Virus record (IMG/VR): IMGVR_UViG_3300007344_000103
Coordinates: 1-34,629 of that record
Direction: 5' to 3' (one strand)
Source: a virus
DNA: 34,629 nt
Shown here: positions 407 through 33,007 of the stretch, in pieces
How positions within the stretch are numbered: the first letter of the stretch is position 1
Layout: each line of letters opens with the position of its first letter
Notes under the pieces: generated by a model
Told to the model about the DNA's origin: nothing
Database searches by the model: none
What the model saw: the letters and a program-made list of their open reading frames with translations, nothing else
Translations under genes and position numbers: made by a program

Positions 407-1228
407 TCATTTCCCCACCAAGAACCCCTTTCTAACCCTGACCCCTACCCTGTAATCCACATGAGAGACACCCGCCTCAATTCCCACAGAAAGGTTGTTC
501 CTGTTCACGAACCCCAATCCGAGGCTTCCTTCGATGGCGTTCGGAACATTCTCAAATGTGAGTCTCGGCCCTATGCCTCCGTCAATGTACACCTGCCTTC
601 TGACCGGGGCATTGACGGTGACCGTCTTCGTGATGACGGGGTAAGGGGCGAGGTATCGGTATCTGATTGAGGGAACTCCTTTGAGACGGCCTTCAACGCG
701 GAAGTTGACGGCCACCTCTATGCTGTCGTTTCTAAGGGTGTCTCCGTAGGTTCTGAGGGCGATCGCATCGTGGTATGCCTCATCGCATTCATCGAGGATG
801 CTTGTCAGCACCTCGCTATGGTTCCGCAGAGTAGCAATGCTATCAGCACAAGTGCTGTCAGTACTATGGTCTGCTGGTCTGGGTCTGAATCGTGATTGAA
901 GCCTCCTGATACTGTCATTGAGTCTCTCTATGTGCCTCGGTATGGTGTCGAAGCCGTGCAGGGCAAATATAGCGTTCGTGTCAGGGTACACCCATAGGGT
1001 ATCTATTATCTTTAACTCAATACCGTTTCCATTTCCTCCGTGTCTTCCCCAAGGGTCTATCACTCCGGAGCAATGCGTGAGGAGGCACATGATAGCCCAC
1101 GCAAGGAGTGCGATGTAGGAGACCTGCTTCCAGTTCTCTTTCAGGAAATCCGTGAGGGGGCCTTTGAGGAAATCCCAGATGGGGAGCGCGTACTTGGAAG
1201 CGATGGCGAGGATGGCTGCTATGGTCAT
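407..1228 (-). CDS. Membrane-anchored periplasmic protein, spanin-like candidate
   Basis: 273 residues; not a family I can name with certainty. One clear membrane segment lies at residues about 37-52 (VSYIALLAWAIMCLL). Next come a Gly/Asn-rich linker (60-70), a helical region with LNDSIRRLQSRF (about 103-114), and a polar middle with several Cys and Asp residues. The last 60 residues look like three amphipathic beta strands (about 213-225, 232-253, 258-273) with the Gly/aromatic alternation typical of outer-membrane strands. The start codon overlaps the stop of the giant ejection-protein gene in ATGA, so it is co-translated at the end of the late operon. That position and the inner-membrane-plus-outer-membrane design suggest a lysis role (spanin). 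This is inference; a periplasmic component of DNA injection or a phage membrane protein of unknown role is also possible. Confidence 0.55.
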   Translation of the reverse strand: MTIAAILAIASKYALPIWDFLKGPLTDFLKENWKQVSYIALLAWAIMCLLTHCSGVIDPWGRHGGNGNGIELKIIDTLWVYPDTNAIFALHGFDTIPRHIERLNDSIRRLQSRFRPRPADHSTDSTCADSIATLRNHSEVLTSILDECDEAYHDAIALRTYGDTLRNDSIEVAVNFRVEGRLKGVPSIRYRYLAPYPVITKTVTVNAPVRRQVYIDGGIGPRLTFENVPNAIEGSLGLGFVNRNNLSVGIEAGVSHVDYRVGVRVRKGFLVGK

Positions 1229-4200
1229 TTGGATTGACTTTCTATGAGTTGAATGTACTCTTTGTACTTGTTCTTGAATTTCAACATGTATGCAGACTTT
1301 GCTTTCTGGTCGAGGTGCTTCATTGCCTTGCGTATCCTGCCAAGATGCTGCTCGCTTATTCCTTCCTTGGATATTGAAACGTAGTTCTTGGCAAGTTGAT
1401 CCGCACTGACAAATGTATTGCCGTTCCCATCATTTGTAACCAAGGCTTTTAACAGCTCTTTGTCCTCCTTTCCGTCAGTCTCCTTAAACACGCCCACATT
1501 GAACCTTTGAGCAATGGTCGATTTGTCTGCGCCTATTTTGTCGAGTCTCGTTTTGGGTGTCGTGACGAGGGACTTCATCATGTAGGAGTTTCCTCGTTTC
1601 TCTTTGATGGATTCAAGGATTTCCGTTATCGCAGCCTCTTTCTCCTCTGCCTTCTTTTTCTCGGACTCTTTGATGATGGATTCAGGAGGGGTCGCTTTCT
1701 CTGACATCTGTTCCATGTCGTACCTACTCATAAGCCCTGTCACCCTGCTTGCGGCCTCGGCTGCTGAAAGCTGTTCGTATGATGCGTCCATGATCCCGTC
1801 AACAATCCTTGACGCGGTTCTTATTCCGGGCGCAAGACCTGTAGCGGAGAAAACCTGAACAGGGGCATCCATCATCATCCAAAGCCTTTCAGCCTCCCCC
1901 CTTGCCTCTCCCGTCTTGTCGTTCCTTATGGCTGCAAGTGCTTTTTCAATATCCCTGACCCTGACATCGATGGCGGGAACCATTTTGACCCCTTTCCTCA
2001 CGAGGTTGTTCCCAACAGATCCTGATGCGGTCATCTTCTCGAGAACTTTCAAATCCTTCTTGAACTCGTTTTTCTCATCATTTTTCAATGACCTGAAATA
2101 CTCGCTCATAGCAAAGTCTTTTGCAAACGACAGTACAGCACCGTACGCCCCAAGCCCCCTGAGAACATTGTTAAAGGAGTCGTTCAAAATTCCGACTGTT
2201 TTCTGTTGCCTTATGAGTTCCTTCCTTTCGTCATCATCATCGCTTCCCATAAGCCAAAGTATCCCGCTTTGAGCCGTGTAGAACATGAGGTTCTGAACAG
2301 CCCCGTAGTAGGCTATCCTTGCAGCGCCCTCAAGTTTACCGACCCTTCCATTTTTTACATCGGAAGCGGTTTCCGCCATTGCCCTTGTCATAAGAAGTGA
2401 CACGGAACCGAACGTCAGGAACATTCTCACGAGCGGGTTTCGTGAAGACTGCTCTATGCTCCTGAACATATTCAGGGAACTCTGCTGCGTCTTGTTGGCA
2501 TTGGTCCAAAACTGAGCCATAGCCTTCTCTGCACCTCTTTCCCTTGCAAGATTCTCGTCCATGCCTTTTTCAAGGTTCTCTTTTATGTTCCTCTCCTTCA
2601 GTGCTGCGTACAGTGGTGCCCCAGCGTATGCTATCGTGATGTTGGAGTCAACGAACTGAGTTGGAGAGTATCCTTTTTCGTAGATCTTCTTCACCTTGTC
2701 GATGTACCATTTGGCCGCTGCGTTAGCCCCTCGCGTCTTCCTTGTGCTTATCATATCCCTTATGTCGGGATTGCTCGAGTACTTTACCCTGTTGTAGAAC
2801 TGACCTGACTCGAATATCTCTTGACTGGCTGTGCTGTATGTCTCCCTGTCAAACATCTTTTGCATGTACTCCCTACCTATCCCATACTCTGTGAACGCAT
2901 CGACTATGAAGTTGGGAGCGGACAGCATTTGGAATATGGCAGACCTCATGTTGAAGAACATAATGTCCGATGACGAATACAGGAGCCACTTGAGCATCGT
3001 GTCAGAACCCATCTTGTCGCTAAGGTTCGCAATCTGCGAAGGCTTTCCTGTAACAGTGTCGAACATCATCATCTGAAGCGCCTCACCGAATCCGTCCCCG
3101 TATATCTTCTTAGCGGATGTCAGTACAGGGCTGCTGTTATGGAATGCGGCCCAAGCTGCCTCAAAATCCTGCATCTTGTGGGCTGATACAGGCATGGAGT
3201 CAATGTATTTTGCCATCATCTCCTGAGCGCTTTCGAGACGGAGGCTTCCTCCTGACTGCCTTTCAACAAGGTTCCCCGAAACAATGCTCGGGGCAGTCTT
3301 GCTGTCGTATGCCGATTGCGAGAAGAACTCATTGGGGCCTTGAACCGACAGGTCTGTTCCCGCCACGCTTCTTGGGGAGTATTCCTCAAATTCAGGGATG
3401 TTCTCTATGGATCCGTAAACGGCCTCCATGAGGACCCTTTTCATGTTGAACGCATCGACATTCTTTATGGCGTTATCGAGATTCGTCTTCGCTCTTTCAA
3501 CCCGTCTCTCAAGCATTGCTTCATCTGCTGGGTCAACGTTGTTGGAAAGGTTCACTTCGGCCTGTTCGACAGATTCTCTTGCGGCCTCTATCTCTGATAG
3601 GCCACTTTCCCCCGACATGGACATAAGGTTCTCTTTGAGTTTCCTGTTGGAGACTTTTGCAACACCTATGTAACCACCTGCCTCAAGCGCATCGTTTGCT
3701 GTCGGAAGGTATGAGTCATAGATGGAGATTGTGCCATCAGCATAGGCCTTCAGTTCAGGGTCTGACTTGACGTGATTCACGATATTGAGTATGGATTCCA
3801 CCGTCATCTTGGCCTCCATCATCTTGTCTATCGACCCCGACTGCTTGACCTGATTGTAGATGTATATAGCCTCGTCATTGGTCACGTTCTCATACCTCAC
3901 TCCTTTGTCCGTGGTTTCAAGGTCTATTCCTGTTCTCTTGTCGAGCGACTTCTTTGCTTTGTCCTCTGAGCCGAAAACAGACTTCTTCAATGCTTCATCC
4001 TTCTTCTTGAGCATCTTCCTGTCAGAGAATACCTTCTCATCACTTATCATGTTTGAGAGGATGAATGTCTCGTATAGGAAATCCATGTCCTCTTTTGTTT
4101 GAGCAAGTGCTTGAAGCATCCTCGGTACATCCATTCTCGACCTAACGGATCCTATCATCCTGTTTGCCCTGTCTCTGATTGAGTTCAGGAATCCGTCCGA

Positions 4201-7200
4201 CTGTCTCTGAGTCATATCTGGAACTGGCCTTATTATCAGCGTGGCCCCTTCAAAAGCCTCATCGGGAAGTGTGTCTGAAAGGTCTCTCCCTTCTTTTGCC
4301 GGAAACAGGAATGTCCCATCCTTTAATCGGACAAGGTTTCCGCCTCCCTCTGTTCCCATTGCCGGTGAGATCTGATTGAACACCGCTTGCCGACCCTCTA
4401 TCGGGAATGTCATTCCAGCCTTTCTCTGAGCCATCTCGAGTGTTACTCCTGCAATACGCTGTCTTCTTGCCTTCATCATGGCCTCTGACGCCTTCCTCTC
4501 GATTTTCCCCGTCTGAACGATGTCCTCTATTATGGCATCAAGAGCAATGAGTTCGTCCATGGACATCCTGCTGATGCTTTCTGCATACAGTTCTGACAGA
4601 GATCTTAGTGAATCAATTGCCTGGTTGGTTATTGTTACCTTTTTGCGTTTACGGGTCCTTTGGGTTTTTCTCCCGTATTTCTTTATGTTGAGTGCGTCTG
4701 ATATTTCAGAGACAAGTTCCTGCCTCTCCTGCTCATCACGTTTTCTCTGCTTGGCCTGTTCCTTCTCTATTCTTCGAGCCTCCTCTATTGCCTCCTTAGC
4801 GTTATGCGATGCAACGAGTTTCTCTATGTAATCCTTGAGTTCGGATGTCTTTTCCTCATAATTGCTCGGATTGACCTCTGATATGAGCCTTCCGAGTTTT
4901 GATGCCTGAACATTATTGAAGCTGATTCCGGCATCGCGCACATCCTTCCTCATATCAACCTGAGCTGATTTTATGATGTCGGAATCTTTCCTTGTCTTGT
5001 CCTTGAGTTCCTGCCTGTACTTCTTGAACTTTCCTTCAAGTGATTCCCGAAGAGCTTTCATCTTCTCAGATGCTTTCTTCCTCTCCTCCGCACGGGCTTT
5101 TTTTACAGACTCCTTTCCCTTTGCCTTTTCAGCCTCTACTCGGGAATCATTGTACTGCTGCTCAGTAATCCCCATTTCTCGTAGGACAGTTCCTCTCAGG
5201 TCGTAAGCCTTTCTCTGCGCTGGCCTCATTCTCATGAACTGAGGACTGTTCCTTATGTGCTCTACAAGGAAATCCACAATATCTGACATGTAGGCCGTGG
5301 CCTCAAGAGTCTTCTCTGCTGCGGTTATTGCAGCGTTCCACGCCTGAACAAATCCGGGGATTCCTGACATAGCTATCCCGCGATTATCAATTTTGCCCTT
5401 GGCAACCTCTTTTGCAAGGTTCCGAAGGAAGTCCCCCGTCTTGACCTTCTTCTTTGGAGAAGGTTTACCGATTCGTTCCTTTCGGTTTCTCTGTGGTGGA
5501 ATCTTGTATCTTGACTCTCCTGTGATGTTCCTCTCAGCGGCAATGGTATTTATGAAGTCGATGATGTCTTCAGGATCAAAGAACTCTACGTCTTCTGCTG
5601 CATTAGGCTTTGAGCGGGTATCTATCGGCTGGGTTCCGCCTTGCTCTGTGACAAGCCCTTTGAGGTATCTTCTGTTGTCCCTGTAGGTCTTCTTACCCAT
5701 GTATCGCTCGTACTCCTCGATGGATATAGGCTGGAAGGTTTCCTGTATGTCTTGAAAAAAGGTAGTTTCTTTGAACTCCTCCAATTCTTTCTCCCGTTCC
5801 GCGTATGCGGCTTCCATCTCTTCTTCGGTAAACTCTTGTTCTGTTTCTTCTACGGGCTTTGGTTCAGTAGGCTCCGGAAGTTTTTCTATCGCGGCCTCAA
5901 CAGCATCCATCTCGGTCTCTATGCGACTGACCTCGGCCTCGTTCTCTACGTCCACAAGGGAGTAATCCTCACGCAGGCTGAACAGGTAGTCAAGGAGGGA
6001 TTCTCTCGACATGGACGCTATGTCGGGCGCGCCTACTTCTTCTTGGGCTTTACCTTCTCTGGCAGCTTCTTGTTCTTGGGTGTCTTCTTCTCGAACTCTT
6101 TGGCGAGTTTCGGGTTCTTGGCGTACAGGGCGCGTCTCTGCGCTTGGCTCTTGAAGGGCATCTTGGGTTGGGTTTGGTTGTATTTCGTAAATTCCTGTGG
6201 AGACTTCTCCGCCTTGGTTGTCAATGTCGAATCCGATGGCCTTCCAAAAAGGAATTGCGTCTCTCTCTGACTCTATGATAATCCGCTCCGCACCGATTTC
6301 CCGTGCCCACGCCTCCACTTCAGAGAACTCGGCCCTGCCCTTTCCTTTCATTCTGTCCCTCTTAGGGACTTCCATGTTGTCAATCCTGACTTGCGGGACT
6401 CCCTCATCGTCAAATTCAGAAAACGCATCTATTGTTACGTTGCTCTTTGGAGTGTATGTCAGTCCTTCACTGAACACACCCTCCTTATTTGACTCAGATT
6501 CGGAAACAGGTGCTTCTACGGGCTGTGTTGTGGGCTCTGTGGGGGTTGGCTTATTTGCTTGGGAAATCTTCTCGTCTATACCCTGAAGCTGTGTGGCGTA
6601 ATTCTCTCTGATAGCGGCTTCCGCCTCGTTCATCTGCTCTTTTATGCGAGCCTCTTGCTCTTCCCTCCAACGCTTTTCATTGTTGGGCGTCCGAGCCAAT
6701 CCATCGGGGAACGGTAGAGGGGCGTAATAAAATGGATCCCTTGCTTTCGCAATCTCATCCTCCATCTTCTGTTCGATGGAGGTTTTTTCCTGTTGAAGCG
6801 ATTCGGTTTTCTTCTCCGCTTGAGGCGCCTCCGTAGCGGTCTCCTCAACAGGCGTGCCTCTCCGCTCCATCTCTGCGAGGTATTCCTCTTTGGTCAGGTC
6901 AACGGGGTCTTTGCCGTCATTCCTATCGACGGATGCGTATCTGGCCTCTGTCGGGGTCGTGTTGACGGTCGGTGCGGGGGAAGGCTTGCTTGCTTGGGCT
7001 TGTATTGATTCTTCGGTTTTCGGTTCTTGATTGATTGGCGCATCAGATGCTGCGATGTCCTCTGCTTCCATTTTACCTTTGGCAGACTCAAGCATTTCGA
7101 TGTCCATTCCTATGGCATCGAGGAGTTCGTTCGTTCTTTTTTGGCTCAGAGGGTTCTCTTTCGGATTATCTCTTAATGAGGATATTCTCTTGTATTCCGA

Positions 7201-10092
7201 ATACAGCCAATCAGATGCCGCTTCAATTTGACTAAGGCTTGTTGGCTTGTCGTCTTCTACTCGCGTAATTGCAGCAGTCACAAACTTCGGTGCAGGCTCC
7301 ATTATGTCGGGGATGATGCCCAGCTCCTCTTCTCTCTTAATCAAGTACCCCTCCCTTTCCGCTTCGTACCCTTCTTGTTGTGCTTGTTCCTTTTTCCTGT
7401 TCGCTATGTCCGCATCAACTTTCCCCCGCTGGTTCTGCTTGAAATCATTGATTGTTTTGGCGAACTCCTCAACGACCTGCTGAGAATCTTTCCCAAAGGC
7501 GTTGAACTTGATCTTCCCGTCAACGACCTCCTGCATGAACGCTGGATTGGACATCGCCTTCTTGATTCCCGTGGGGGTCATAACGGTGAAGTTGCCGTCC
7601 TCGAACTCCGCTGTGGCATAGTTGGGTGTCCCTCCCTCGAATATCTCATCGAGCATGGCCTTCCTCTCATTGGCCTCCTTCTGTGCTCTTGCCTTGAAGA
7701 TGGGGTCTTTCTCGTTTTCGGCCTTCCTTTCAAGGGCACGGTGCTCCATGTTTATCATAGAGAACAACAGACGGTTCTCATCGGTGATGCCTTCCATGGC
7801 ATTCACCTTTTCAGTGATCTCCTTCGCGTCATTCAACGACTGCTGTATCCTTGTGAAGGTCTCGTATGTGATGCCCCCATTGAAGTACGTGGCTACGGCC
7901 ACCTTTGAAGCCTCGTACACACCGAAGTCAACGGCAAGTTTGAGTGCCGACTGTTGGAAGTCCGTGCCAGTGAAGTCCCCCGCCCGCATTCTTGAGTTGA
8001 TGGAACTTAGCCTATTTGCTATCTGCTCCTCCCTCTTTTCCTGTGATCCTTTCTCGTCCACATACGCCCTTGCCTGACCGAGACCGCCCATGAGCATGAC
8101 GGAAGGAGTGTTCAATGCCACATCCTTGAGTTTCCCTGCTGTCTTTTCAAAATTGCTTGGTGTGAAGTTGTCAAGAACGCCTTCAAGTCCTTTTCCCGCG
8201 ACAATGGATTCCTCGAAGAGTTGTTGTGGAAATTCCTGAAATAACGTCTCTATAACGTATTCCGTACCCGCCCCGAGAGCAATCCTTCTTCCAAGCCCCC
8301 CGCCAGTGAATATCTTCCCGAAGATGTTGGACATCTCAAGGAAGTAGGTCGGGAGCAACAGCCCTTGCGCAGAGAATGCCTGTGACACCCCTTGCTGAAC
8401 CTTCGCGGGATCCCCCGTCTCATTGTATATCCGCTCTGCGATGCCCCCCGCTATATCCGCTGATTCTCCTGCCCACGACATCATCGTTCCGAGGGCCACG
8501 CCCCCCAGACCCCCCGTTGCGACACCTGCTGCGACAGCGGGTACCATCGATGTGGTCATACTGCCCATGAGGTTGCCTGTGGACCGGGCCGATTTGAAAA
8601 GGTCGAGCCAGTCACTCAGCTTCTCCATGTTCGGGTTTCCCGTATAGAAGAAGTTCTCCATGGCCTTCCCCGTGGACTGCATCTCGGGGGATGCGAACAG
8701 GCTTCCCATGCGGCTTACAGAACCGCCTACTGCGGATGCCCACGATGTCCCGAGGGCCATCACCTTGTTGTCCCTGTAAAGGATTTCCCTCCAAGAGTCG
8801 TTCTCTCCGAGTACTTTTCCGTATGCCTTCCGATAGGTGTCCTCGATTTCCTTTTGAAGCCCAGGAACGAGCCTCTCTTTCTCGGACATGAACTCCTGCA
8901 TGGTCCGCTCGGCCTGTTCGATACGTTCGATGCGGACGCGATTGAATCTCCTGTTGGCGTTGGCCTGTATCTGGGTAAGTTCGCCCACCGTCCTTGAAAC
9001 CTCTGATTCGTACTGCTTCTGAGTTGTCTCGAACTCGGATTGGTACTGAGCATACTGTTCGGGGCTTCCCGCGAACTCTCCTTGCGGGGTGATGAACTGA
9101 GCGTACCGTGATTGAAGTTCTCTGATTCTCTGTTCATGGGCCGCGTCCCTCATCTGTACGTACTCCTGCACGGGCATTCCGCCTGTGACCTTAGCGAACT
9201 GCTCCTCCACCTGTGCCTCCACCTGTGCCTTCTCCTGCGAAAGGCCCGATATGAGTTCGCGCTCGATTTCGGTTTCCTTCTGATTCACTCCGAGGTATTC
9301 GCGCACGTCCTTCGGCACTTCCTTCCCCTTCTCTTCCTTCCACATCCTCTCAAAAGCCTTATCAACCCTCGGCTGGACTATCTTGAAGGCGATATGGTCT
9401 GTGGCCTTGTCATTGAGTGCCTTCCACGCCCAGCCGTCCTCGGGCAGTCCGTTCTCTCTTGCGACCGCCTGCGCCCACTCCTTCACTTTTCGGGGGTCGG
9501 GCACGGAGACCCCTGTCAGGTCTGATGTGGTGAACTCCTTTACGTTGTCCCTTATCCTGTCCTGTACGATATTCTCTATGGCGGACATAGCGGATGACCT
9601 TGCCGCATTGAAGTCCCTGTCAGTCCCCGCAACAGCCTTCTTTCCCTCTTCAATCTTCTCCCTCCTGTACTTGTCCGCAGCGGGGCCTCCTGCCAATCCA
9701 ACTCCAAGAGCCATGAACGGCCCCTCGAATGCGGATACCTTACTCGCTTGGAGTTCGTGTCTCTTGGACGCTATCCGCTCGTATTCCGCAAGGGGATTGA
9801 CTGGTGGCCTCTCAAGGGATACCTTTGGGAGTATCGGGTCGTCCTGTTCGATTACCCCGCCCAATCCCGAGAAGGGCTGGTCAGGAAGCTGAATACCTCT
9901 CGAAGGTGACGATGGAGCACCCTGTAAGCCTTGCGAACCATCTTGGGAAGATGACCCGATAGGGCTTTTTTTTTCAGGGACAATGGGTTCTTCTACGGGA
10001 GTAAATCCTGACGGCAATGGAGGCGCGTCAGACGATTCTACTACGGTGAATCCTTTGGGAAGTGGGGGTAGGGTTGGGTCTTGGTTCCGCAT
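1225..10092 (-). CDS. Giant polyvalent internal virion / DNA ejection protein
   Basis: 2955 residues, the largest gene here. The N-terminus (1-90) is Pro-rich and repeats a PPLPxGFTxVE motif twice (about 9-19 and 24-34). A helical, charged region follows, then a Gly/Ala-rich hydrophobic region (about 505-570). Residues about 1000-1230 are a disordered acidic/Pro linker. A GNAT acetyltransferase-like core lies at about 1205-1290, with RMKGKGRA matching the acetyl-CoA loop R/QxxGxG/A and FWKAIGFD as the closing motif. More disordered sequence is followed by long coiled coils (about 1690-1900), and C-terminal helical domains with hydrophobic stretches near 2367-2397, 2555-2570 and 2594-2620 resemble large polyvalent protein-associated domains. 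I find no DxDxD RNA-polymerase motif. It overlaps the upstream 533-aa gene as TGATG. Being last of the big virion genes, it is probably packed in the head or tail and ejected into the cell; that is inference from family and position. Confidence 0.75.
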   Translation of the reverse strand: MRNQDPTLPPLPKGFTVVESSDAPPLPSGFTPVEEPIVPEKKSPIGSSSQDGSQGLQGAPSSPSRGIQLPDQPFSGLGGVIEQDDPILPKVSLERPPVNPLAEYERIASKRHELQASKVSAFEGPFMALGVGLAGGPAADKYRREKIEEGKKAVAGTDRDFNAARSSAMSAIENIVQDRIRDNVKEFTTSDLTGVSVPDPRKVKEWAQAVARENGLPEDGWAWKALNDKATDHIAFKIVQPRVDKAFERMWKEEKGKEVPKDVREYLGVNQKETEIERELISGLSQEKAQVEAQVEEQFAKVTGGMPVQEYVQMRDAAHEQRIRELQSRYAQFITPQGEFAGSPEQYAQYQSEFETTQKQYESEVSRTVGELTQIQANANRRFNRVRIERIEQAERTMQEFMSEKERLVPGLQKEIEDTYRKAYGKVLGENDSWREILYRDNKVMALGTSWASAVGGSVSRMGSLFASPEMQSTGKAMENFFYTGNPNMEKLSDWLDLFKSARSTGNLMGSMTTSMVPAVAAGVATGGLGGVALGTMMSWAGESADIAGGIAERIYNETGDPAKVQQGVSQAFSAQGLLLPTYFLEMSNIFGKIFTGGGLGRRIALGAGTEYVIETLFQEFPQQLFEESIVAGKGLEGVLDNFTPSNFEKTAGKLKDVALNTPSVMLMGGLGQARAYVDEKGSQEKREEQIANRLSSINSRMRAGDFTGTDFQQSALKLAVDFGVYEASKVAVATYFNGGITYETFTRIQQSLNDAKEITEKVNAMEGITDENRLLFSMINMEHRALERKAENEKDPIFKARAQKEANERKAMLDEIFEGGTPNYATAEFEDGNFTVMTPTGIKKAMSNPAFMQEVVDGKIKFNAFGKDSQQVVEEFAKTINDFKQNQRGKVDADIANRKKEQAQQEGYEAEREGYLIKREEELGIIPDIMEPAPKFVTAAITRVEDDKPTSLSQIEAASDWLYSEYKRISSLRDNPKENPLSQKRTNELLDAIGMDIEMLESAKGKMEAEDIAASDAPINQEPKTEESIQAQASKPSPAPTVNTTPTEARYASVDRNDGKDPVDLTKEEYLAEMERRGTPVEETATEAPQAEKKTESLQQEKTSIEQKMEDEIAKARDPFYYAPLPFPDGLARTPNNEKRWREEQEARIKEQMNEAEAAIRENYATQLQGIDEKISQANKPTPTEPTTQPVEAPVSESESNKEGVFSEGLTYTPKSNVTIDAFSEFDDEGVPQVRIDNMEVPKRDRMKGKGRAEFSEVEAWAREIGAERIIIESERDAIPFWKAIGFDIDNQGGEVSTGIYEIQPNPTQDALQEPSAETRPVRQEPETRQRVREEDTQEQEAAREGKAQEEVGAPDIASMSRESLLDYLFSLREDYSLVDVENEAEVSRIETEMDAVEAAIEKLPEPTEPKPVEETEQEFTEEEMEAAYAEREKELEEFKETTFFQDIQETFQPISIEEYERYMGKKTYRDNRRYLKGLVTEQGGTQPIDTRSKPNAAEDVEFFDPEDIIDFINTIAAERNITGESRYKIPPQRNRKERIGKPSPKKKVKTGDFLRNLAKEVAKGKIDNRGIAMSGIPGFVQAWNAAITAAEKTLEATAYMSDIVDFLVEHIRNSPQFMRMRPAQRKAYDLRGTVLREMGITEQQYNDSRVEAEKAKGKESVKKARAEERKKASEKMKALRESLEGKFKKYRQELKDKTRKDSDIIKSAQVDMRKDVRDAGISFNNVQASKLGRLISEVNPSNYEEKTSELKDYIEKLVASHNAKEAIEEARRIEKEQAKQRKRDEQERQELVSEISDALNIKKYGRKTQRTRKRKKVTITNQAIDSLRSLSELYAESISRMSMDELIALDAIIEDIVQTGKIERKASEAMMKARRQRIAGVTLEMAQRKAGMTFPIEGRQAVFNQISPAMGTEGGGNLVRLKDGTFLFPAKEGRDLSDTLPDEAFEGATLIIRPVPDMTQRQSDGFLNSIRDRANRMIGSVRSRMDVPRMLQALAQTKEDMDFLYETFILSNMISDEKVFSDRKMLKKKDEALKKSVFGSEDKAKKSLDKRTGIDLETTDKGVRYENVTNDEAIYIYNQVKQSGSIDKMMEAKMTVESILNIVNHVKSDPELKAYADGTISIYDSYLPTANDALEAGGYIGVAKVSNRKLKENLMSMSGESGLSEIEAARESVEQAEVNLSNNVDPADEAMLERRVERAKTNLDNAIKNVDAFNMKRVLMEAVYGSIENIPEFEEYSPRSVAGTDLSVQGPNEFFSQSAYDSKTAPSIVSGNLVERQSGGSLRLESAQEMMAKYIDSMPVSAHKMQDFEAAWAAFHNSSPVLTSAKKIYGDGFGEALQMMMFDTVTGKPSQIANLSDKMGSDTMLKWLLYSSSDIMFFNMRSAIFQMLSAPNFIVDAFTEYGIGREYMQKMFDRETYSTASQEIFESGQFYNRVKYSSNPDIRDMISTRKTRGANAAAKWYIDKVKKIYEKGYSPTQFVDSNITIAYAGAPLYAALKERNIKENLEKGMDENLARERGAEKAMAQFWTNANKTQQSSLNMFRSIEQSSRNPLVRMFLTFGSVSLLMTRAMAETASDVKNGRVGKLEGAARIAYYGAVQNLMFYTAQSGILWLMGSDDDDERKELIRQQKTVGILNDSFNNVLRGLGAYGAVLSFAKDFAMSEYFRSLKNDEKNEFKKDLKVLEKMTASGSVGNNLVRKGVKMVPAIDVRVRDIEKALAAIRNDKTGEARGEAERLWMMMDAPVQVFSATGLAPGIRTASRIVDGIMDASYEQLSAAEAASRVTGLMSRYDMEQMSEKATPPESIIKESEKKKAEEKEAAITEILESIKEKRGNSYMMKSLVTTPKTRLDKIGADKSTIAQRFNVGVFKETDGKEDKELLKALVTNDGNGNTFVSADQLAKNYVSISKEGISEQHLGRIRKAMKHLDQKAKSAYMLKFKNKYKEYIQLIESQSK
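6033..6161 (-). CDS. Small conserved phage protein (MPFKSQAQRR family), nested out of frame in the giant gene
   Basis: A 42-codon frame, +1 relative to the giant gene, starts with ATG at 6161 and stops with TAG at 6033-6035. It begins MPFKSQAQRRALYAKNPK and continues through KKTPKNKKLPEKV to a Lys-rich end. This is the layout of a widespread family of tiny basic phage proteins: MPFxSxAQxRxxxAxxP near the start, TPxxKxLPxxV near the end. Codons mostly end in G or C, as in real genes here. In the main frame the same bases encode a low-complexity Glu/Gln/Arg linker (about residues 1311-1353), so the overlap costs the giant protein little. The frame is open upstream to 6224, but the family starts at the ATG used here. 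Its leader is AC-rich and has no ribosome-binding site I can see. Function is unknown for the family as I know it; the basic charge suggests nucleic-acid or protein binding. Confidence 0.65.
   Translation of the reverse strand: MPFKSQAQRRALYAKNPKLAKEFEKKTPKNKKLPEKVKPKKK
9966..9974 (-). other. A9 homopolymer in the giant gene
   Basis: The coding strand has nine consecutive A bases across codons 40-43 (E-K-K-S) near the N-terminus of the 2955-residue protein. Runs this long can cause polymerase slippage and are also common sites of sequencing error. Confidence 0.5.
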
Positions 10093-12485: not shown

Positions 12486-15400
12486 TCAGTTATTTATCCT
12501 TCGCATCCTGTCCCTTATCTTGACAATGATGCTGTGAAGTAGGTTGTAAGTCCCGCCAAAGATAGTGAACTTGACACGCAAGTAATCACCCGACAATGCA
12601 ACTCTGCTTTGGTTCGGTGCAAGGCCCTGAGACACATCTCCTCTTATAGGCGCGAAGTACTGATCATCCCTGCGGACAAAGTCCTGAGACTCTGAGAATG
12701 TTCTCTGTCTCGGGGTGCTAAAATCAACTCTGTCGGGGGCGTTGTCCGAAAGGAAGCTGACAGCGACCCCTCTCATGCTTTGCTCGGGGAGTTCGTTGAC
12801 GACCATCTCCACATGGGCGTCCTCGATCTTTGGGGCTATTCCTTTTGCCTCATTACCGTACCATGTGCAGTAATCCCCTTTCCTGTGCTCAAAGATGAGG
12901 TTCCTGAATATGGGGTGGCTTGAAAGGAATGTGTCCCGCCACTTCAAGTAGGTCTTCGGGATGTGCCCGTAGAACGTTTTGAAGCCGTTGGTCATCTCGT
13001 TGTGGGCCACCGTGAACACGGAGTAGTAGTCGGTGTCCGTCACGGGTATCTCCTCGAAGAACTCCTGCCAATCAGCCCCGACCCCCGGCTCTCTCGAAAG
13101 GAGGTTAGCGTGGGTGCTCTTTGCCTTGAAGAACCTTGGGAGGTTTTCGTAGGTGAGGGATGGTGCGTTGGGGTTGCTGACAACGGTGCCTTCTGTTGTG
13201 GACGGGATGATGACGCCAGGACGGGCCCACTCCGCAACATCTCTCCAGCCGGTGAATGTCCAGATGGCCTCCTTGCTGCGGTCGTCCCACACGGCCCTGA
13301 TGCCTTGCTCGAATGCGGGGGCATCCTTCCCGCGAACCCACTTGGCGGCCTTGTTGGAGAACGACCTGAAACGCCTTGTGTCGGAGATTATTACCGTGCC
13401 GTCTGCACCGAATCTTAGAAAGAGGCCGTTCTCGGCATTGAACCAATAGAGGACATCCTTGCCGCCTTGGCTCGTTCCAAGGACGCATGACCACTTGTTC
13501 TCCGTGCCGTAGCGGGAAAGGGTCTGCCCGTCACGGGAAAGTACCGAGCCATCACCGATGACTGCGCCTATCGCATTGCCCGACACTTGGAGTTCTCCAC
13601 GGGTGTTGAAGAGCTGCGCCATCCACTTCCGCAACTGAAGAGTGAATAGTTCACCGTTCACATTCTCGTGGTGCATTATTTCCCCGAACCTGAGATCAAG
13701 GTCTTTCAGGTCAAAAGGAAGGAACATCGCGTACGAGTCGGAAAGTTCCCCGTAGATTTTCTTCTGAGACCATACGATCCTTGAAGGGAAATCAAATCTC
13801 GTTGGGTCAAGACCCTCGTTTCCTGATGCCTGAGTAAGGCCATCCGACACGTCACCGTCATATATTCCTGAATACGTGTGCCTATCAAGTAATCGGAAAT
13901 CCCATGCCCACTCACCGAGCGTATTGGTATCCTTCAATGGAATGAACTGATCTTCCGTGTCGAATCTGAGTTGCGAGTTGACCCTGTTTTGGGTATAGAC
14001 GAAAAGACCTCCCCCGAACCCAGGTCCCTTGGTTGCGGACATCAGGGTGTCGTCAGTGCTCCATTCTCCATCATTTGCACCCGGACTCACGGAGACATCT
14101 GAAAATTTGGTCTTGAGATAGGATTGCTGTGTGTAAGTGTCTCCTCCGAAAACTTTTATCTCTCCCGGCTGTATATCTCCGAAAGGTTCTCTTTCCCTGA
14201 TGTCGAGAACAGTGTTTGTAGTGAGGTATGTGGATTCGGATTTATCCCCGTACTTGTCATCCTTTTTCGTGAACAGTTGAATGTACCTGATGCCGTGGTC
14301 GGGATTTTTACCCTGAGAAACTATGCCGAGGCCATTATTCTCAGTGAAAACAACCGGGCTTTCAATCATCTTCCATAACCCTTCATAACCAATCTTTCGG
14401 GTGGTTGGGGGTGGCCCACCGATAAACTGCCCGGCAAAGAATGAAAAGGCGTCATGTGCCTTCCTGAATCCATTGAAGCCGTCCATATTAACCCTCTCCC
14501 CCGCCCCGATTATTGAGATTCTGTCTATGGTGTACTCGTTGAATGATGTACCCATGTTCTCAGGGATGTATCTACTGACACATGATGGAATCTGAACATC
14601 CTCACTCCCTGTTGAAACAGCTTTCCAGTAAAATGTATTTGAAAACTGAGTCATGTCAAGAAAAGCCTCCCCGAAATCTATTACAGAAGATATTGTTGAT
14701 GGCTCAAATTCCTGTTGTTGCCCGAATATCAGATCAGGGGAATATATGGTGTGGTATCTCCTCTCAGACTTTAACCTGTTTCCGAAGTTGTTCAGAGTCG
14801 TTGATGTGCCAATGGAATCCTCCTCAGTGGTCGGTATGTCGTTCATGCAGAAGTCAACACCGTTTGCGGATGGGTAGTAAACAGAAACACCCGGTGGGGT
14901 TGACCCGTCATTGAAGCCTTGGAACGTGTTCACCCACGAACCCTCAGGCTGAAAGGTCACAACGAAGTGTTCCAAAAGGTGAGTCGTTATGAATGGCAGC
15001 GCAGACGAAGCAGGGGTTGAGCCTGTTACCATCCTTGTCATAGGAAATGAAGAGTACACGTATGGATACTCGTGAAAAGTCTCAAAAACCCCATCCCTGT
15101 CACCGGTCCTCACTCCAAGACCAAGCCTTGTGTCCGGGAGACGATTAGAGCCTTGGTTTATTATAGAAAATGTCCCCACAAGTGAAGGCCCTCTCAAAAT
15201 GCCTTGAACAGATTGAAAATCCTCCCCGGGCACGTTGAGGTCATCTGATGTTGTTATCCGAACAGAGGACACTGCCATACCTGTTGCAATCACCTCTTTG
15301 ACGACCTCGCACCTGCCAATTTCTATATGTGAAATCAATGAGGATAAGGGAGTGCCGTTTATCGGTGCATTTATGTTTGCTCCAAAAAACTCCACATAGG

Positions 15401-17525
15401 GAACGAGCACGGTCTTGTGAAAATACCTTGAATCGGAGAAATAATCCCCGACACCATTCTGCGGGTTGCTGACAAGGTTGCCATTGGAATCGAAAACGCT
15501 GCCGTCCGGGGTCTTTCTGCCTGTTTGGGATATAGCTATCCCGGGTATGTTCTCTGTAAGGTCGTATGACGTGGCGATGTTGGGGGAGGATTGGTCTCTC
15601 CTGTCATCATTGGGATTTGCCGCGTTTGATGTGAGTGGGTCGATTCTGATGTCATCAATCCAAAACCAGTCCGATATTGAACCGTTGTTAAAAACGACCC
15701 TACCCGAGAACCGATAGGTCTCATTGAACATATACCCCTTTTTGTAGAACACGTTTGAAGTGTCCTTGAACTCCCCAGCAGGGTTTGATGCGGACGGGGC
15801 CTGTGTGCCATCTATCCTTTCAACGCATACAGAGTGCTTGAATGAAGCGAAAAAATCCTCAAGGTCAGCATATCTTGGCTTCCTAAGATTCGACCTCACA
15901 ATCCGTTGGTCTATTATTCGGATGTTCTTTGCAAAGTCATAGTTCAAAGAGTTCCATTGAGACGCAAATACGGCCACATCGTAAGGAATGAACTCCTCGA
16001 ACCCAGTATGGACAAAACTCATTTCAACCCCCGACACCTCTCGAAAAGGGCCTATGTTAGCGGAAAGAACCCCAAGCGTGTTGTTCACGTATCCGAGCGC
16101 GACCTGAGAGAATACCGATGTATCAATCCCACTGACAGTCAACCTTGTCAACTTGTTGGTTGTCACTCCCGCATCGTCACCTATGGCAAGGGAATTTTCC
16201 TCATCAGAATAGACCACGACAACACCTGACAGGTCTGATGGATTGGATTCATTGCCAGAAAAATCCTTGAAGACAAAAAAGTACCTGTAATTTCCGGACA
16301 CCAGACTTCCACCCGGGTTCGATTGGCCGTCATAATCAATTATCACATAAGGCTTAGGACTGAATCCGTATATCTGAGAATTGATATTCCCGTATGAATA
16401 ATCATTCCCTGCCCCAATAAAGCCGAGAAGCCCATCGGTGACGTAATCGCCTTTGTAATATATTCTCCTGTAATTATTGTAATCGTCATCAAAGTAGATG
16501 GACACCTCATTAACCTCCTTTTCCCCATCGGAATCCACCTGCCAACGACTCACAAAATTCAACTCCACGCTCCGGAGCAATCTCGTGTAAGTCCACGAAT
16601 CAGTGTTGTCGTCCTTCTGAGCGACACCTATCTCTCCGATGCCTGTCGGGTGGATGAACACCTGCGGGGTTCCGAGGGTGGTCACGGGAGGACTGACTCC
16701 CCACGCGGTGACCGTCACGATTTCTATCTGAGTGGCATCCACTACTGAGTTCACCACGAACAGGCCGTTCAGGAACGACTCGTTCGAGCCCGTGATGCGT
16801 ATCCACTGTCCTTGAACAAGTCCATGGTTGCCGTTGAAGAGCAAACTCGTGAGCGGGCCTATGTATGTTCCTCCCGATGTCGGGCCTACAAGGATTATGT
16901 CGGGAGCTATCTCTGTCGGCTCGTTGTCCTGAGTCGTACTGAATATGAACAGGTCTCCAAGTAAGTCGTAGCTGCCGATGTCCTTTAGCGGCCCCGCGAG
17001 GTCAACAGGTATGGCCTCCGCCACGCATGTCACCTGAACAACGTCCTGACCAACGCTCTCCGCGTACCATTGGTACATCGGATAAGCGGTCATCGTAACG
17101 TCAACCGTTGTGGCTGTCGCTGAGAAGGTCATCACCCCAGCGTTACCCGCTGCTTGCAATGCTGCCACGCAACTTGCGACCGTTCCGTTGAACTCAACCG
17201 CCTGACCAGGTAACGGCCCCGTGCCGATAAGTATGTTCGCGTCCCGCTGCGTAGAGAGGAACCTTACCGCGTGCTGCTTCGTGGCATCCCCGTCAAGGAA
17301 TATCCTGTACCGCTTGTTCTGCTGAGTGACGCTGCCGAGGTCAAAGCCTAATACGCATCCCTTTGTAGGTATAGCGGAGCCTTGCAGGTTGCCGTCCTCG
17401 GATACTGCTTGAATGTTCCTTGCATCGAGGTAATCTCCTGCGCGTTCTCCCTTTCCGACATACCTTGGGTCGGAATCCTTGTCCATGTTCCCCGCAGGGG
17501 TTATGCGCGTGATCTTGTCTGCCAT
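12486..17525 (-). CDS. Large tail hub / stabilisation-type protein
   Basis: 1679 residues. The N-terminus (KITRITPAGNMDKDSDPRY, about 4-22, then GDYLDARNIQAVSEDGNLQG) has the form seen in P22 gp10-like phage stabilisation or tail-accessory proteins, where the start threads along neighbouring subunits. The rest is almost wholly beta-rich, with many Gly, Asn, Asp and aromatic residues. A compact beta module, NHGLVQGQWIRITG with FLNGLFVVNSVV (about 225-278), recurs in two other virion proteins of this phage. The C-terminus ends in a short amphipathic helix. Its size and place after the neck genes and before the ejection proteins match the distal tail 'muzzle' or hub gene of crAss-like phages. 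That equivalence is inferred from gene order. Confidence 0.65.
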   Translation of the reverse strand: MADKITRITPAGNMDKDSDPRYVGKGERAGDYLDARNIQAVSEDGNLQGSAIPTKGCVLGFDLGSVTQQNKRYRIFLDGDATKQHAVRFLSTQRDANILIGTGPLPGQAVEFNGTVASCVAALQAAGNAGVMTFSATATTVDVTMTAYPMYQWYAESVGQDVVQVTCVAEAIPVDLAGPLKDIGSYDLLGDLFIFSTTQDNEPTEIAPDIILVGPTSGGTYIGPLTSLLFNGNHGLVQGQWIRITGSNESFLNGLFVVNSVVDATQIEIVTVTAWGVSPPVTTLGTPQVFIHPTGIGEIGVAQKDDNTDSWTYTRLLRSVELNFVSRWQVDSDGEKEVNEVSIYFDDDYNNYRRIYYKGDYVTDGLLGFIGAGNDYSYGNINSQIYGFSPKPYVIIDYDGQSNPGGSLVSGNYRYFFVFKDFSGNESNPSDLSGVVVVYSDEENSLAIGDDAGVTTNKLTRLTVSGIDTSVFSQVALGYVNNTLGVLSANIGPFREVSGVEMSFVHTGFEEFIPYDVAVFASQWNSLNYDFAKNIRIIDQRIVRSNLRKPRYADLEDFFASFKHSVCVERIDGTQAPSASNPAGEFKDTSNVFYKKGYMFNETYRFSGRVVFNNGSISDWFWIDDIRIDPLTSNAANPNDDRRDQSSPNIATSYDLTENIPGIAISQTGRKTPDGSVFDSNGNLVSNPQNGVGDYFSDSRYFHKTVLVPYVEFFGANINAPINGTPLSSLISHIEIGRCEVVKEVIATGMAVSSVRITTSDDLNVPGEDFQSVQGILRGPSLVGTFSIINQGSNRLPDTRLGLGVRTGDRDGVFETFHEYPYVYSSFPMTRMVTGSTPASSALPFITTHLLEHFVVTFQPEGSWVNTFQGFNDGSTPPGVSVYYPSANGVDFCMNDIPTTEEDSIGTSTTLNNFGNRLKSERRYHTIYSPDLIFGQQQEFEPSTISSVIDFGEAFLDMTQFSNTFYWKAVSTGSEDVQIPSCVSRYIPENMGTSFNEYTIDRISIIGAGERVNMDGFNGFRKAHDAFSFFAGQFIGGPPPTTRKIGYEGLWKMIESPVVFTENNGLGIVSQGKNPDHGIRYIQLFTKKDDKYGDKSESTYLTTNTVLDIREREPFGDIQPGEIKVFGGDTYTQQSYLKTKFSDVSVSPGANDGEWSTDDTLMSATKGPGFGGGLFVYTQNRVNSQLRFDTEDQFIPLKDTNTLGEWAWDFRLLDRHTYSGIYDGDVSDGLTQASGNEGLDPTRFDFPSRIVWSQKKIYGELSDSYAMFLPFDLKDLDLRFGEIMHHENVNGELFTLQLRKWMAQLFNTRGELQVSGNAIGAVIGDGSVLSRDGQTLSRYGTENKWSCVLGTSQGGKDVLYWFNAENGLFLRFGADGTVIISDTRRFRSFSNKAAKWVRGKDAPAFEQGIRAVWDDRSKEAIWTFTGWRDVAEWARPGVIIPSTTEGTVVSNPNAPSLTYENLPRFFKAKSTHANLLSREPGVGADWQEFFEEIPVTDTDYYSVFTVAHNEMTNGFKTFYGHIPKTYLKWRDTFLSSHPIFRNLIFEHRKGDYCTWYGNEAKGIAPKIEDAHVEMVVNELPEQSMRGVAVSFLSDNAPDRVDFSTPRQRTFSESQDFVRRDDQYFAPIRGDVSQGLAPNQSRVALSGDYLRVKFTIFGGTYNLLHSIIVKIRDRMRRINN

Positions 17526-30793: not shown

Positions 30794-33007
30794 TTATTCC
30801 ACTTCTGTTCCTGGCATTCCTGCTTCGGAGGCGAATACCATGTCCCTTGACATGTTCATCTCCTCGCGTTTGATCTGATTGGCCTCGTGCTTGGGCGCGT
30901 TGCGGATCTGGTCTCGAAGAGCCTTGTTCTGTTCTTCGAGTTGGAACATCTGACCTTGCTGCTGCATCTGCATCTGTTGCATCTGCTGCTGCATAGCCAT
31001 GTCTTCTTGTCTCATGCGCTCGGCTTTCAGTTCTTTCAGTTCGAGGGACTCTTTCAGTTTGGTCATCAACTCCTGACTTGTGCGGGCGTTCTCGATGTTG
31101 ATGGCATCGAGCATTGTGAACCCTGTCTCTCTCGCGTTCTGTGCCATTGCGAGGGCATATTGCTGATACCTTGCCCTGCGCTCCTCGTCAATGAAGTCCT
31201 CCATCTCGATACGCACCTGCATGTCGATGACATTGAGGTCTTGCATGGCCTCCCAGAAATCTGCGCTTGCGTCAGAGAGAATGAGTTCCGCCTCTTCCCT
31301 GTTCTTGGGCTCCAAGAGCATTGTCTTGGCGGTATTTAATATGTCCTGCTCTATGAAGGCAAAGTGTTGGAAGAATCCCGACATGAGAGAAACGGTGCCG
31401 TTGCTGGCCTGTGCAACGGTGGCCTGCTGTGTACCTCCACCGATGTACGTCTGCTGCATCCCTCTCGTGATGTTCGATTGGGATACCACATTGTCCATGT
31501 CCGCTTTGAACTCCTTTCGCAGGGCTATGTACTGTGCCACGTTAGGGTCAAGGGTCATGTCCACTGTGTCCACCATCCTGTTGTTGTTGATGATGGGTTC
31601 CTCGGGGTCGGCCCTGTTGATGACTGTTACACCGAAGTTCTTGAGGTCTTCAATGATGTCTTTCGGAACGGCTGTATCCGCATAGAACACATACCCCTTT
31701 CCGAGGTCTCTGTCGATGTGTTCCCGAATCTTGTACTTGAACGCATCCAAGTCCTCCTGCATTTCTCTGAACCGGTCCACGGGACAGACGTTCGTTCCGA
31801 GTATCGTGTCGGGGCTGTAGATATGGATGGGCATGACCGGCCACTCAGGTCGGGCTATGTCGTAGCTGATGTTGTTGGATTCCCCGAAGTTGACAAGCAC
31901 CGTGTTTCCTATCAAAGTCCCCTCGTAGATGGTCTGATAGGATGTCCCGTCATCTTCCTTTATCGTGGCGATGAAGTATCCTGTCACACAGGCTATTCTA
32001 CGGGGTCCGTCCGATTCCAGCCAAGAGAATCCAGATTGGGGGACATTACCCATCACTCCGTTGAGTCCCGGCAGTGTTGCACTCCTGTTGCTGTCGAAGA
32101 GCTTCTTGAGTTCTTCCTCGGCATCGCTTCCGAGGGTGTACGCCTGCATGATCTCCTCGTGGGATTTCCAACTGATGAATCCCTTGAACAGGGCGTACCT
32201 GTTGTAGTCGTCATCTGAGTTGTCTCTGTCGAAGATGAGGTTCCAAGGGTCAATCTTTTCGAGGACGATTCTTCCATTGGATACTGTTCTGTGCGTTGCG
32301 CAATGCCTTCCAATGACGACATCCTTGAAACGCTTGGGCATGTAGTCCTTTACGCTGTTGGTGTTGTTGACATGAGTAAGGATGTCCATGCCGTACCGCT
32401 CGACCTTGTGGGCTGGTTTTCTCAGCGCCTCCTGAATAGCCCCGTCCATGTCCTTTGCCTCGGTTGCTCCTTCAGGCATGAACGTGGCGCCCATTTCGGA
32501 GAACCTCTTGAAGATGTCTGGCAGGAGTTTCTTGGCTTGAAGCATTGCGACCTTGGCCTGCCGCTTGGACTGCACGGAGGGATCAAGGGATTCGATTGTG
32601 ATGGTTGTCCCTGCGAAGTGCTTCACAACGGGGCCTACCATGTGCTGCACCACCTGATAGATCTCTGAACCATGGGTAAATTTGGCTGGACGCTCCTCCC
32701 CCTCTGCGGTTTCTGTCAGGTAGGCATAGCTGTTAACATCCTGCTGGGACTGATAGTACTTGTAATTGAGGAGCATCTCCTCTACGGGAGACCTGTGAAG
32801 GATGTGGCCGGGATTCCTCGTGGAGTAGAGAGGGGTATTGTAGTCGAGGTTCCACTGCGTGACCATGAAGCGGAGGTACTTGGCAATCATGCCGTGCATC
32901 CCCTTGTGTTCTTTTTTCAGGGCCCGTTTCGTGCCTACGACATTAGGGCGGTGGGTCTCCATCTGATGCGATGGGCCTTCCGTGTCAAGTAGCTTGTAGT
33001 TGTCCAT
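30794..33007 (-). CDS. Portal protein
   Basis: 737 residues, the size of podovirus portals. Early segments have the crown and wing pattern (GSEIYQVVQHMVGPVVKHF, then KIDPWNLIFDRDNSDDDY). A stem-like helical region follows (VDRFREMQEDLDAFKYKIRE), and the long C-terminus carries a Met/Gln-rich coiled coil at about 663-702 (MQQQMQQMQMQQQ), as in portal barrels. It forms the dodecameric ring through which DNA enters and leaves. It is the first gene of the head module and has its own promoter overlapped by an inverted repeat. No terminase gene precedes it inside the window; in the usual order it would lie further right. Confidence 0.85.
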   Translation of the reverse strand: MDNYKLLDTEGPSHQMETHRPNVVGTKRALKKEHKGMHGMIAKYLRFMVTQWNLDYNTPLYSTRNPGHILHRSPVEEMLLNYKYYQSQQDVNSYAYLTETAEGEERPAKFTHGSEIYQVVQHMVGPVVKHFAGTTITIESLDPSVQSKRQAKVAMLQAKKLLPDIFKRFSEMGATFMPEGATEAKDMDGAIQEALRKPAHKVERYGMDILTHVNNTNSVKDYMPKRFKDVVIGRHCATHRTVSNGRIVLEKIDPWNLIFDRDNSDDDYNRYALFKGFISWKSHEEIMQAYTLGSDAEEELKKLFDSNRSATLPGLNGVMGNVPQSGFSWLESDGPRRIACVTGYFIATIKEDDGTSYQTIYEGTLIGNTVLVNFGESNNISYDIARPEWPVMPIHIYSPDTILGTNVCPVDRFREMQEDLDAFKYKIREHIDRDLGKGYVFYADTAVPKDIIEDLKNFGVTVINRADPEEPIINNNRMVDTVDMTLDPNVAQYIALRKEFKADMDNVVSQSNITRGMQQTYIGGGTQQATVAQASNGTVSLMSGFFQHFAFIEQDILNTAKTMLLEPKNREEAELILSDASADFWEAMQDLNVIDMQVRIEMEDFIDEERRARYQQYALAMAQNARETGFTMLDAINIENARTSQELMTKLKESLELKELKAERMRQEDMAMQQQMQQMQMQQQGQMFQLEEQNKALRDQIRNAPKHEANQIKREEMNMSRDMVFASEAGMPGTEVE

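Follow-up and report, generated by a model that had tools for sequence, protein, structure and literature searches.

Results

The nested gene and its host

The DNA analysed here, called the window throughout, is the 34,629-nucleotide stretch at positions 1 to 34,629 of the IMG/VR virus record IMGVR_UViG_3300007344_000103. On its minus strand, an open reading frame (ORF) of 42 codons plus a stop (6033..6161) lies entirely within a 2955-codon ORF of the same strand (1225..10092), in the +1 frame: the A of the small ATG is the second base of a host codon, and host codons begin 2 bases into the small ORF. Translation of 6161..6033 yields 42 residues that begin MPFKSQAQRRALYAK and finish TPKNKKLPEKVKPKKK, which, together with the frame check, bears out the initial annotation of a 42-codon frame in +1 to the giant gene. 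The product is a basic, phrog_1375-like protein with two predicted helices and a Lys-rich tail. From the sequence comparisons described below, we consider it very likely that this ORF is a genuine gene, conserved and captured.

The proposal that this ORF belongs to a widespread tiny phage family found strong support in a leave-one-out profile. Built from the 42 other rows of our family alignment (A1), the profile recovered the window ORF with E = 7.1e-24, while the next of 967 stop-to-stop frames scored 0.097; moreover, 41 of the 43 members of A1 match phrog_1375 (PHROGs v4, function unknown), the best with E = 6e-8. Searches of single libraries with the 42-residue product, the check suggested initially, gave weak matches: phrog_1375 against the window copy alone reached E values of 0.54 (42 amino acids) and 0.02 (37 amino acids) in single-model comparisons, the best tblastn hit in 50,697 phage records had E = 0.5 with coverage of at most 48%, and the best Pfam match (E = 0.018) was far below the family cut-off. 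Copies in other phages share as much as 89% identity with the window protein over 37 residues. Its AlphaFold2 model, based on 65 sequences, has a mean predicted local distance difference test score (pLDDT) of 87.4, with helices at residues 6-15 and 17-26 ahead of the Lys-rich tail; the model had no fold match in the PDB, and the sequence had no credible match there (best E = 0.016). The string MPFKS, encountered in a phage paper, turned out to stand at the end of an unrelated 57-residue protein.

In the host frame, the overlap corresponds to an E/Q/R-rich linker (residues about 1311-1354; 6030..6162, minus strand) between an acetyltransferase-like domain and helices. The linker is modelled with low confidence, as expected of a disordered segment, and its pLDDT in a single-sequence model falls below 50 at residues 1310-1330, 1337-1342 and 1344-1353. 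The predicted position of the nested gene within a disordered Glu/Gln-rich host linker thus agrees with what had been suggested from the sequence. The candidate GNAT-like domain just before the linker (residues about 1208-1303; 6184..6471, minus strand) was recognised by Foldseek from the single-sequence model: eight PDB structures matched with E <= 0.001, acetyltransferases ranking first and the lowest E value being 1.7e-4.

Distribution of the small gene family

A degenerate DNA pattern derived from the window ORF, which by itself fixes about one third of the 37 residues, retrieved 59 IMG/VR stretches, all with the same 37-residue layout. An alignment-based scan found at least 399 relatives among 600 viral-contig stretches, of which 80 were kept, and 18 relatives in genome contigs. 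Among the loci fetched, 188 distinct family genes were counted, an ATG being required. With nesting defined as location within a same-strand ORF that has 380 codons or more, 107 of the 188 lie outside any long ORF, in line with the earlier statement that the family is normally free-standing and in favour of capture rather than birth in place. The free set includes four copies whose hosts are below the 380-codon limit, three in the usual phase (L004, L030 and L112, host cut by contig end) and L159 in the other. Stand-alone copies are mostly found near same-strand neighbours, and six of ten large neighbours, picked by size for scanning, are portal genes. Each of 50 contigs, chosen as carriers, contains exactly one family match.

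Members of phrog_1375 and the window protein have the same small basic layout; the nested arrangement, unlike in the window, is not part of the PHROG description. In four loci (L020, L037, L041 and L043) longer proteins of 165 to 464 residues begin with the family sequence, which thus also occurs as a domain. Further family matches lie near 4001-4093 of Prochlorococcus phage P-RSP2 (L162) and near 3001-3072 of Synechococcus phage S-CBS2 (L163), with no covering coding sequence annotated on that strand; both are probably unannotated small genes.

Nesting in other phages

The remaining 81 of the 188 distinct genes are nested, and all 81 are in one phase; 59 of their host ORFs are closed at both ends and have from 389 to 3859 codons. 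One of the 81, L139 (same sequence as L142), appeared to be nested in a 678-codon ORF, which probably represents a terminase gene (phrog_2) spuriously extended at its upstream end; this copy, probably a stand-alone gene before the terminase gene, was retained in the count and left out of the host groups. The other 80 copies fall into groups c8 (52 copies), c14 (14), c5 (8) and c4 (4), with L045 and the window contributing one each. The other phase was encountered in L159, whose host has 360 codons and which was also the sole other-phase row (1 of 42) of the first pass.

No homology between different host groups was detected by blastp and hhalign, a weak negative for such gappy proteins; the N-side comparison for c5 was disregarded, there being too few sequences. 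Thus, as far as sequence comparison can tell, the host genes form about five groups without detectable homology, comprising giant cargo-like genes and a gene between the portal gene and a capsid-type gene. The latter is the c5 host, a different gene of about 400 codons, which follows terminase and portal genes in both L157 and L110 (the two of eight c5 loci from which the gene order was taken) and in L157 precedes a phrog_13704 structural gene. The window host shares a C-terminal region with the c8 locus L102. A Pfam scan of five host proteins (E 0.01) gave no family for four and one match below its cut-off for the fifth. The c8 host proteins have in common the HExxH-type motif IHEFGHVW (L161:12306-14702, plus strand), which suggests a metalloprotease domain. 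In a distant host relative, Tenacibaculum phage Gundel_1, the 18.6 kb examined contained no family match.

In a family tree of 53 columns with few firm forks, host-group labels require 21 changes, compared to 66.9 in shuffles. On this sequence evidence, nesting is clustered in the tree, without one obvious origin.

Host relatives selected independently of the small gene

Because loci found through the small gene are biased, host relatives were also fetched by host region. Alignment A2, obtained with the c8 host region downstream of the nested site as the query, contains 79 loci. The initial annotation had named stops or a missing ATG in the small frame of related phages as evidence that it was mistaken. 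The opposite was observed: the small gene is nested in 51 of the 79 loci, always with an ATG and in the same phase. The 74 distinct hosts comprise 48 with the nested gene, one split host, four with the gene downstream (1-9 bases after the host stop codon), two truncated hosts and 19 without it at the site. In the split host (L185:5735-15445, plus strand), the giant gene is divided into two ORFs, the first of which contains the small gene, in the usual phase, close to its 3' end. In L216 and L217 the small gene is absent from the giant gene and is nested, in the same phase, in a 392-codon ORF whose start resembles the c5 hosts by eye.

Of the 28 A2 hosts that lack a nested copy, 18 were compared at the nested site, each with its best nested relative. 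In all eight rows where both flanks could be aligned, the unaligned linker is shorter without the small gene: 94 versus 163 residues in both L165 and L188, 102 versus 435 in L173, 69 versus 157 in L175, 85 versus 421 in L176, 118 versus 182 in L191, 95 versus 151 in L239, and 94 versus 284 in L225, where the copy is downstream. The ten rows with poorly aligned flanks were evenly divided: five have a shorter stretch and the other five (L189, L195, L232, L235 and L238) a longer one.

In one A2 relative without the phrog_1375-like gene, the giant host gene contains another tiny basic ORF in the usual nested phase (L201:9048-9191, plus strand). This ORF is supported by its match to phrog_2423 (E = 6.5e-6) and had no tblastn match in the phage records at E 0.01; phrog_2423 was found in one of 22 contigs searched, L201's own. 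This ORF suggests that linkers of giant genes accept tiny genes more generally.

Selection on two frames

Comparison of the constraint in both frames, proposed at the outset, indicates that both are constrained. It was made on all nested copies together, no locus closely related to that of the window having been found. T occupies 3.3% of third positions in nested copies; the figures for free copies and host genes are 21.9% and 31.7%. After random synonymous recoding, the host frame stays open in an average of 1.5% of cases (7% for the window), so that 1.2 of the 81 would be expected. Differences at host codon positions 1, 2 and 3 number 664, 510 and 303 in the overlap, as against 6235, 4682 and 9093 in the upstream flanks (90 pairs, which share loci and of which a few align hosts of different groups). 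In addition, small-frame identity exceeds host-frame identity in five of five groups. As judged from these alignments, the overlap evolves by small-frame rules.

The single phase was analysed on 97 stand-alone copies, in which the 111-base core is open in the host-type phase in 14 and in the other phase in 53. The other phase is open more often, and therefore blind capture should favour it. The host-frame peptide has a mean charge of -0.13 per residue (-0.07 in the flanks), with 17% Glu, 12% Gln and no Cys, whereas the other phase would read as 28% Arg and 6% Cys with a charge of +0.31. The likeliest reason for the single phase is that an acidic, hydrophilic, Cys-free peptide is tolerated by the linker. 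A start/stop overlap with a downstream gene would be an alternative source of the same phase.

Translation starts

Shine-Dalgarno motifs of four or more bases precede 13 of 14 nested ATGs in c14, three of four in c4 and the single one in L045, the corresponding numbers for other ATGs of the same ORFs being 87 of 1406, 22 of 212 and 10 of 73. In c8 the motif is found at 2 of 52 nested ATGs and at 1143 of 9653 others. In total, 17 of 19 nested starts have it in c14, c4 and L045 and 2 of 61 in all other copies, among them the window's. Bacteroidota rarely use the Shine-Dalgarno motif, which may bear on these counts if the phages infect such bacteria. Upstream of the nested ATG, the small frame is open for a median of four codons (84 loci, duplicates included), which speaks against frameshifting in most phages.

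Other features of the window phage

The first 18,092 bases of the window are identical to a stretch of a 73,651-base IMG/VR contig. On the minus strand, a muzzle gene (12486..17525) of crassvirus type, identified by the Pfam family crAss_MUZ (E = 1.8e-25), is followed by ORFs of 260 and 533 codons and then by the giant ORF. The giant gene is read as a cargo-type virion protein because of this place after the muzzle gene, with two smaller ORFs between; given that the assignment comes from gene order, it is a probable one. The protein itself had no Pfam (E 0.001), PHROG or PDB match. Its C-terminal region (2011..3960, minus strand), recognised by alignment with L102, is common to other giant phage proteins and occurs in at least 202 viral-contig stretches, which points to a broad giant phage protein family. 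A portal gene lies at 30794..33007 on the minus strand (phrog_6547, E = 1.3e-26).

Discussion

The observations on the window and its relatives can be combined into one scenario, which as a whole we regard as probable: a selected tiny gene with its own internal start has been captured into larger genes, relocated repeatedly and acts late in virion assembly. A tiny, basic, two-helix member of a widespread family would have entered the DNA of a disordered linker in a giant, probably cargo-type, virion gene, where comparison indicates that it is kept by selection on both frames. It would be translated from its internal start on a long late mRNA rather than by frameshifting. The one detectable copy per contig, found in the giant gene, in a gene at the position between portal and capsid-type genes, or just after the giant gene, points to repeated relocation. 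Its single phase may have been kept since in this phase the host reads an acidic, hydrophilic, Cys-free peptide, in place of an Arg/Cys-rich one. As for function, the small protein might have a late role in virion assembly, with DNA or acidic virion proteins as its target; this is a guess from the neighbouring genes and the weakest step of the scheme.

Several observations weigh against this scenario. The open host frame of nested copies is partly true by definition. The 19 of 74 distinct host relatives that have no small gene at the site imply that it is not essential to the host gene, and when whole contigs of 22 copy-less loci were searched, a copy elsewhere was found in L216 and L217 only. 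With the C-terminal region of the window host as the query, 78 of 80 loci had no small gene in the fetched DNA, the two exceptions being the window's own contig and that of L102, and it is through this C-terminal region only that the window host is joined to c8. The Shine-Dalgarno motif is absent from the window ATG, from 50 of 52 c8 copies and from all eight c5 copies; the window small frame is open for 37 codons upstream of its ATG, and initiation there is argued by analogy. Finally, the guess of a late role in assembly comes from the neighbourhood.

The best-surviving alternative is a single ancient nesting, inherited ever since by host genes that are all distant relatives. It would account for the one phase in 81 of 81 copies and for the position of the nested ATG at codons 1043-1122 in 25 of the 50 c8 hosts whose 5' end is closed, in hosts that share 26-46% identity with the query over their best segments. 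However, the c5 host with its terminase and portal neighbourhood is a different gene, L216 and L217 carry the small gene outside the giant gene, and four distinct host relatives have it just downstream. The lack of homology between host groups points the same way, with the reservation made above for gappy proteins. Moreover, the tree, which is weakly resolved, places the window copy among stand-alone and c14 copies and apart from c8. We therefore consider a single capture improbable and repeated capture of the small gene likely, as far as can be told from these comparisons. A more specific version, to which we incline with some hesitation, is that disordered linkers of giant virion genes serve as landing sites for tiny genes of the late phase: the single-copy phrog_1375-like gene would move from one unrelated virion gene to another and settle in the frame that leaves a harmless acidic linker, and in one phage or more (L201) phrog_2423 would do likewise.

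Much less plausible still is programmed frameshifting, by which ribosomes would leave the host frame and a shortened host protein would gain a basic tail. The same phase of all 81 long-host copies and the 37 open codons ahead of the window ATG would suit it, but the ATG is kept in 53 of 53 nested matches collected with no ATG required, the small frame is typically open for a few codons upstream, and stand-alone copies begin at the same ATG. Least credible of all is that the small frame is a by-product of a conserved host-frame peptide A(I/V)QE...: this peptide is similar across unrelated hosts, but stand-alone copies encode the same small protein with the host-type frame open over the core in only 14 of 97, substitutions follow the small frame, so that the codon-position test already disfavours the idea, and in three groups Shine-Dalgarno motifs precede the small ATG.

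The usual explanation of nested genes is overprinting, by which a gene arises where it lies. Repeated capture of an existing gene in one fixed phase, which the present data seem to indicate, would amount to a naturally replicated experiment on the formation of overlapping genes, and on the conditions under which a second frame is tolerated. Viral genes that arose by overprinting (PMC8227390) likewise obtain two proteins from one DNA stretch; the difference is that the family considered here existed already and seems to have been captured. A further likeness is to lambda Rz/Rz1, where one phage gene contains the whole of another, smaller one in its +1 frame and sensitive parts of one gene are reported to be placed over flexible or silent parts of the other (PMC5295617). 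As with Rz1, the small ORF is wholly within a same-strand gene in another frame, and both frames appear to be under selection. In contrast, Rz/Rz1 is one specific pair acting jointly in lysis, whereas the window family is nested in a number of virion-type genes that are unrelated, and has stand-alone members too.

The giant gene is compared with those of the PhicrAss001 cargo proteins gp45, gp46, gp47, gp49 and gp50 (PMC10172136) because in the window it comes after a crassvirus-type muzzle gene and two smaller genes; the window protein is placed by gene order, and the passages of PMC10172136 consulted make no mention of nested genes. It also recalls the multidomain polyvalent phage proteins (PMC5512222) in having an acetyltransferase-like domain among other parts, a likeness by description; Pfam scans gave almost no families. 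The literature searched contained no description of a nested phrog_1375-like arrangement. Finally, annotation passes over such genes: in GenBank record MW202828.1, a complete genome obtained from an environmental sample, a copy in the usual phase lies inside an annotated coding sequence of 3,859 residues, and this giant coding sequence is the sole feature annotated there.
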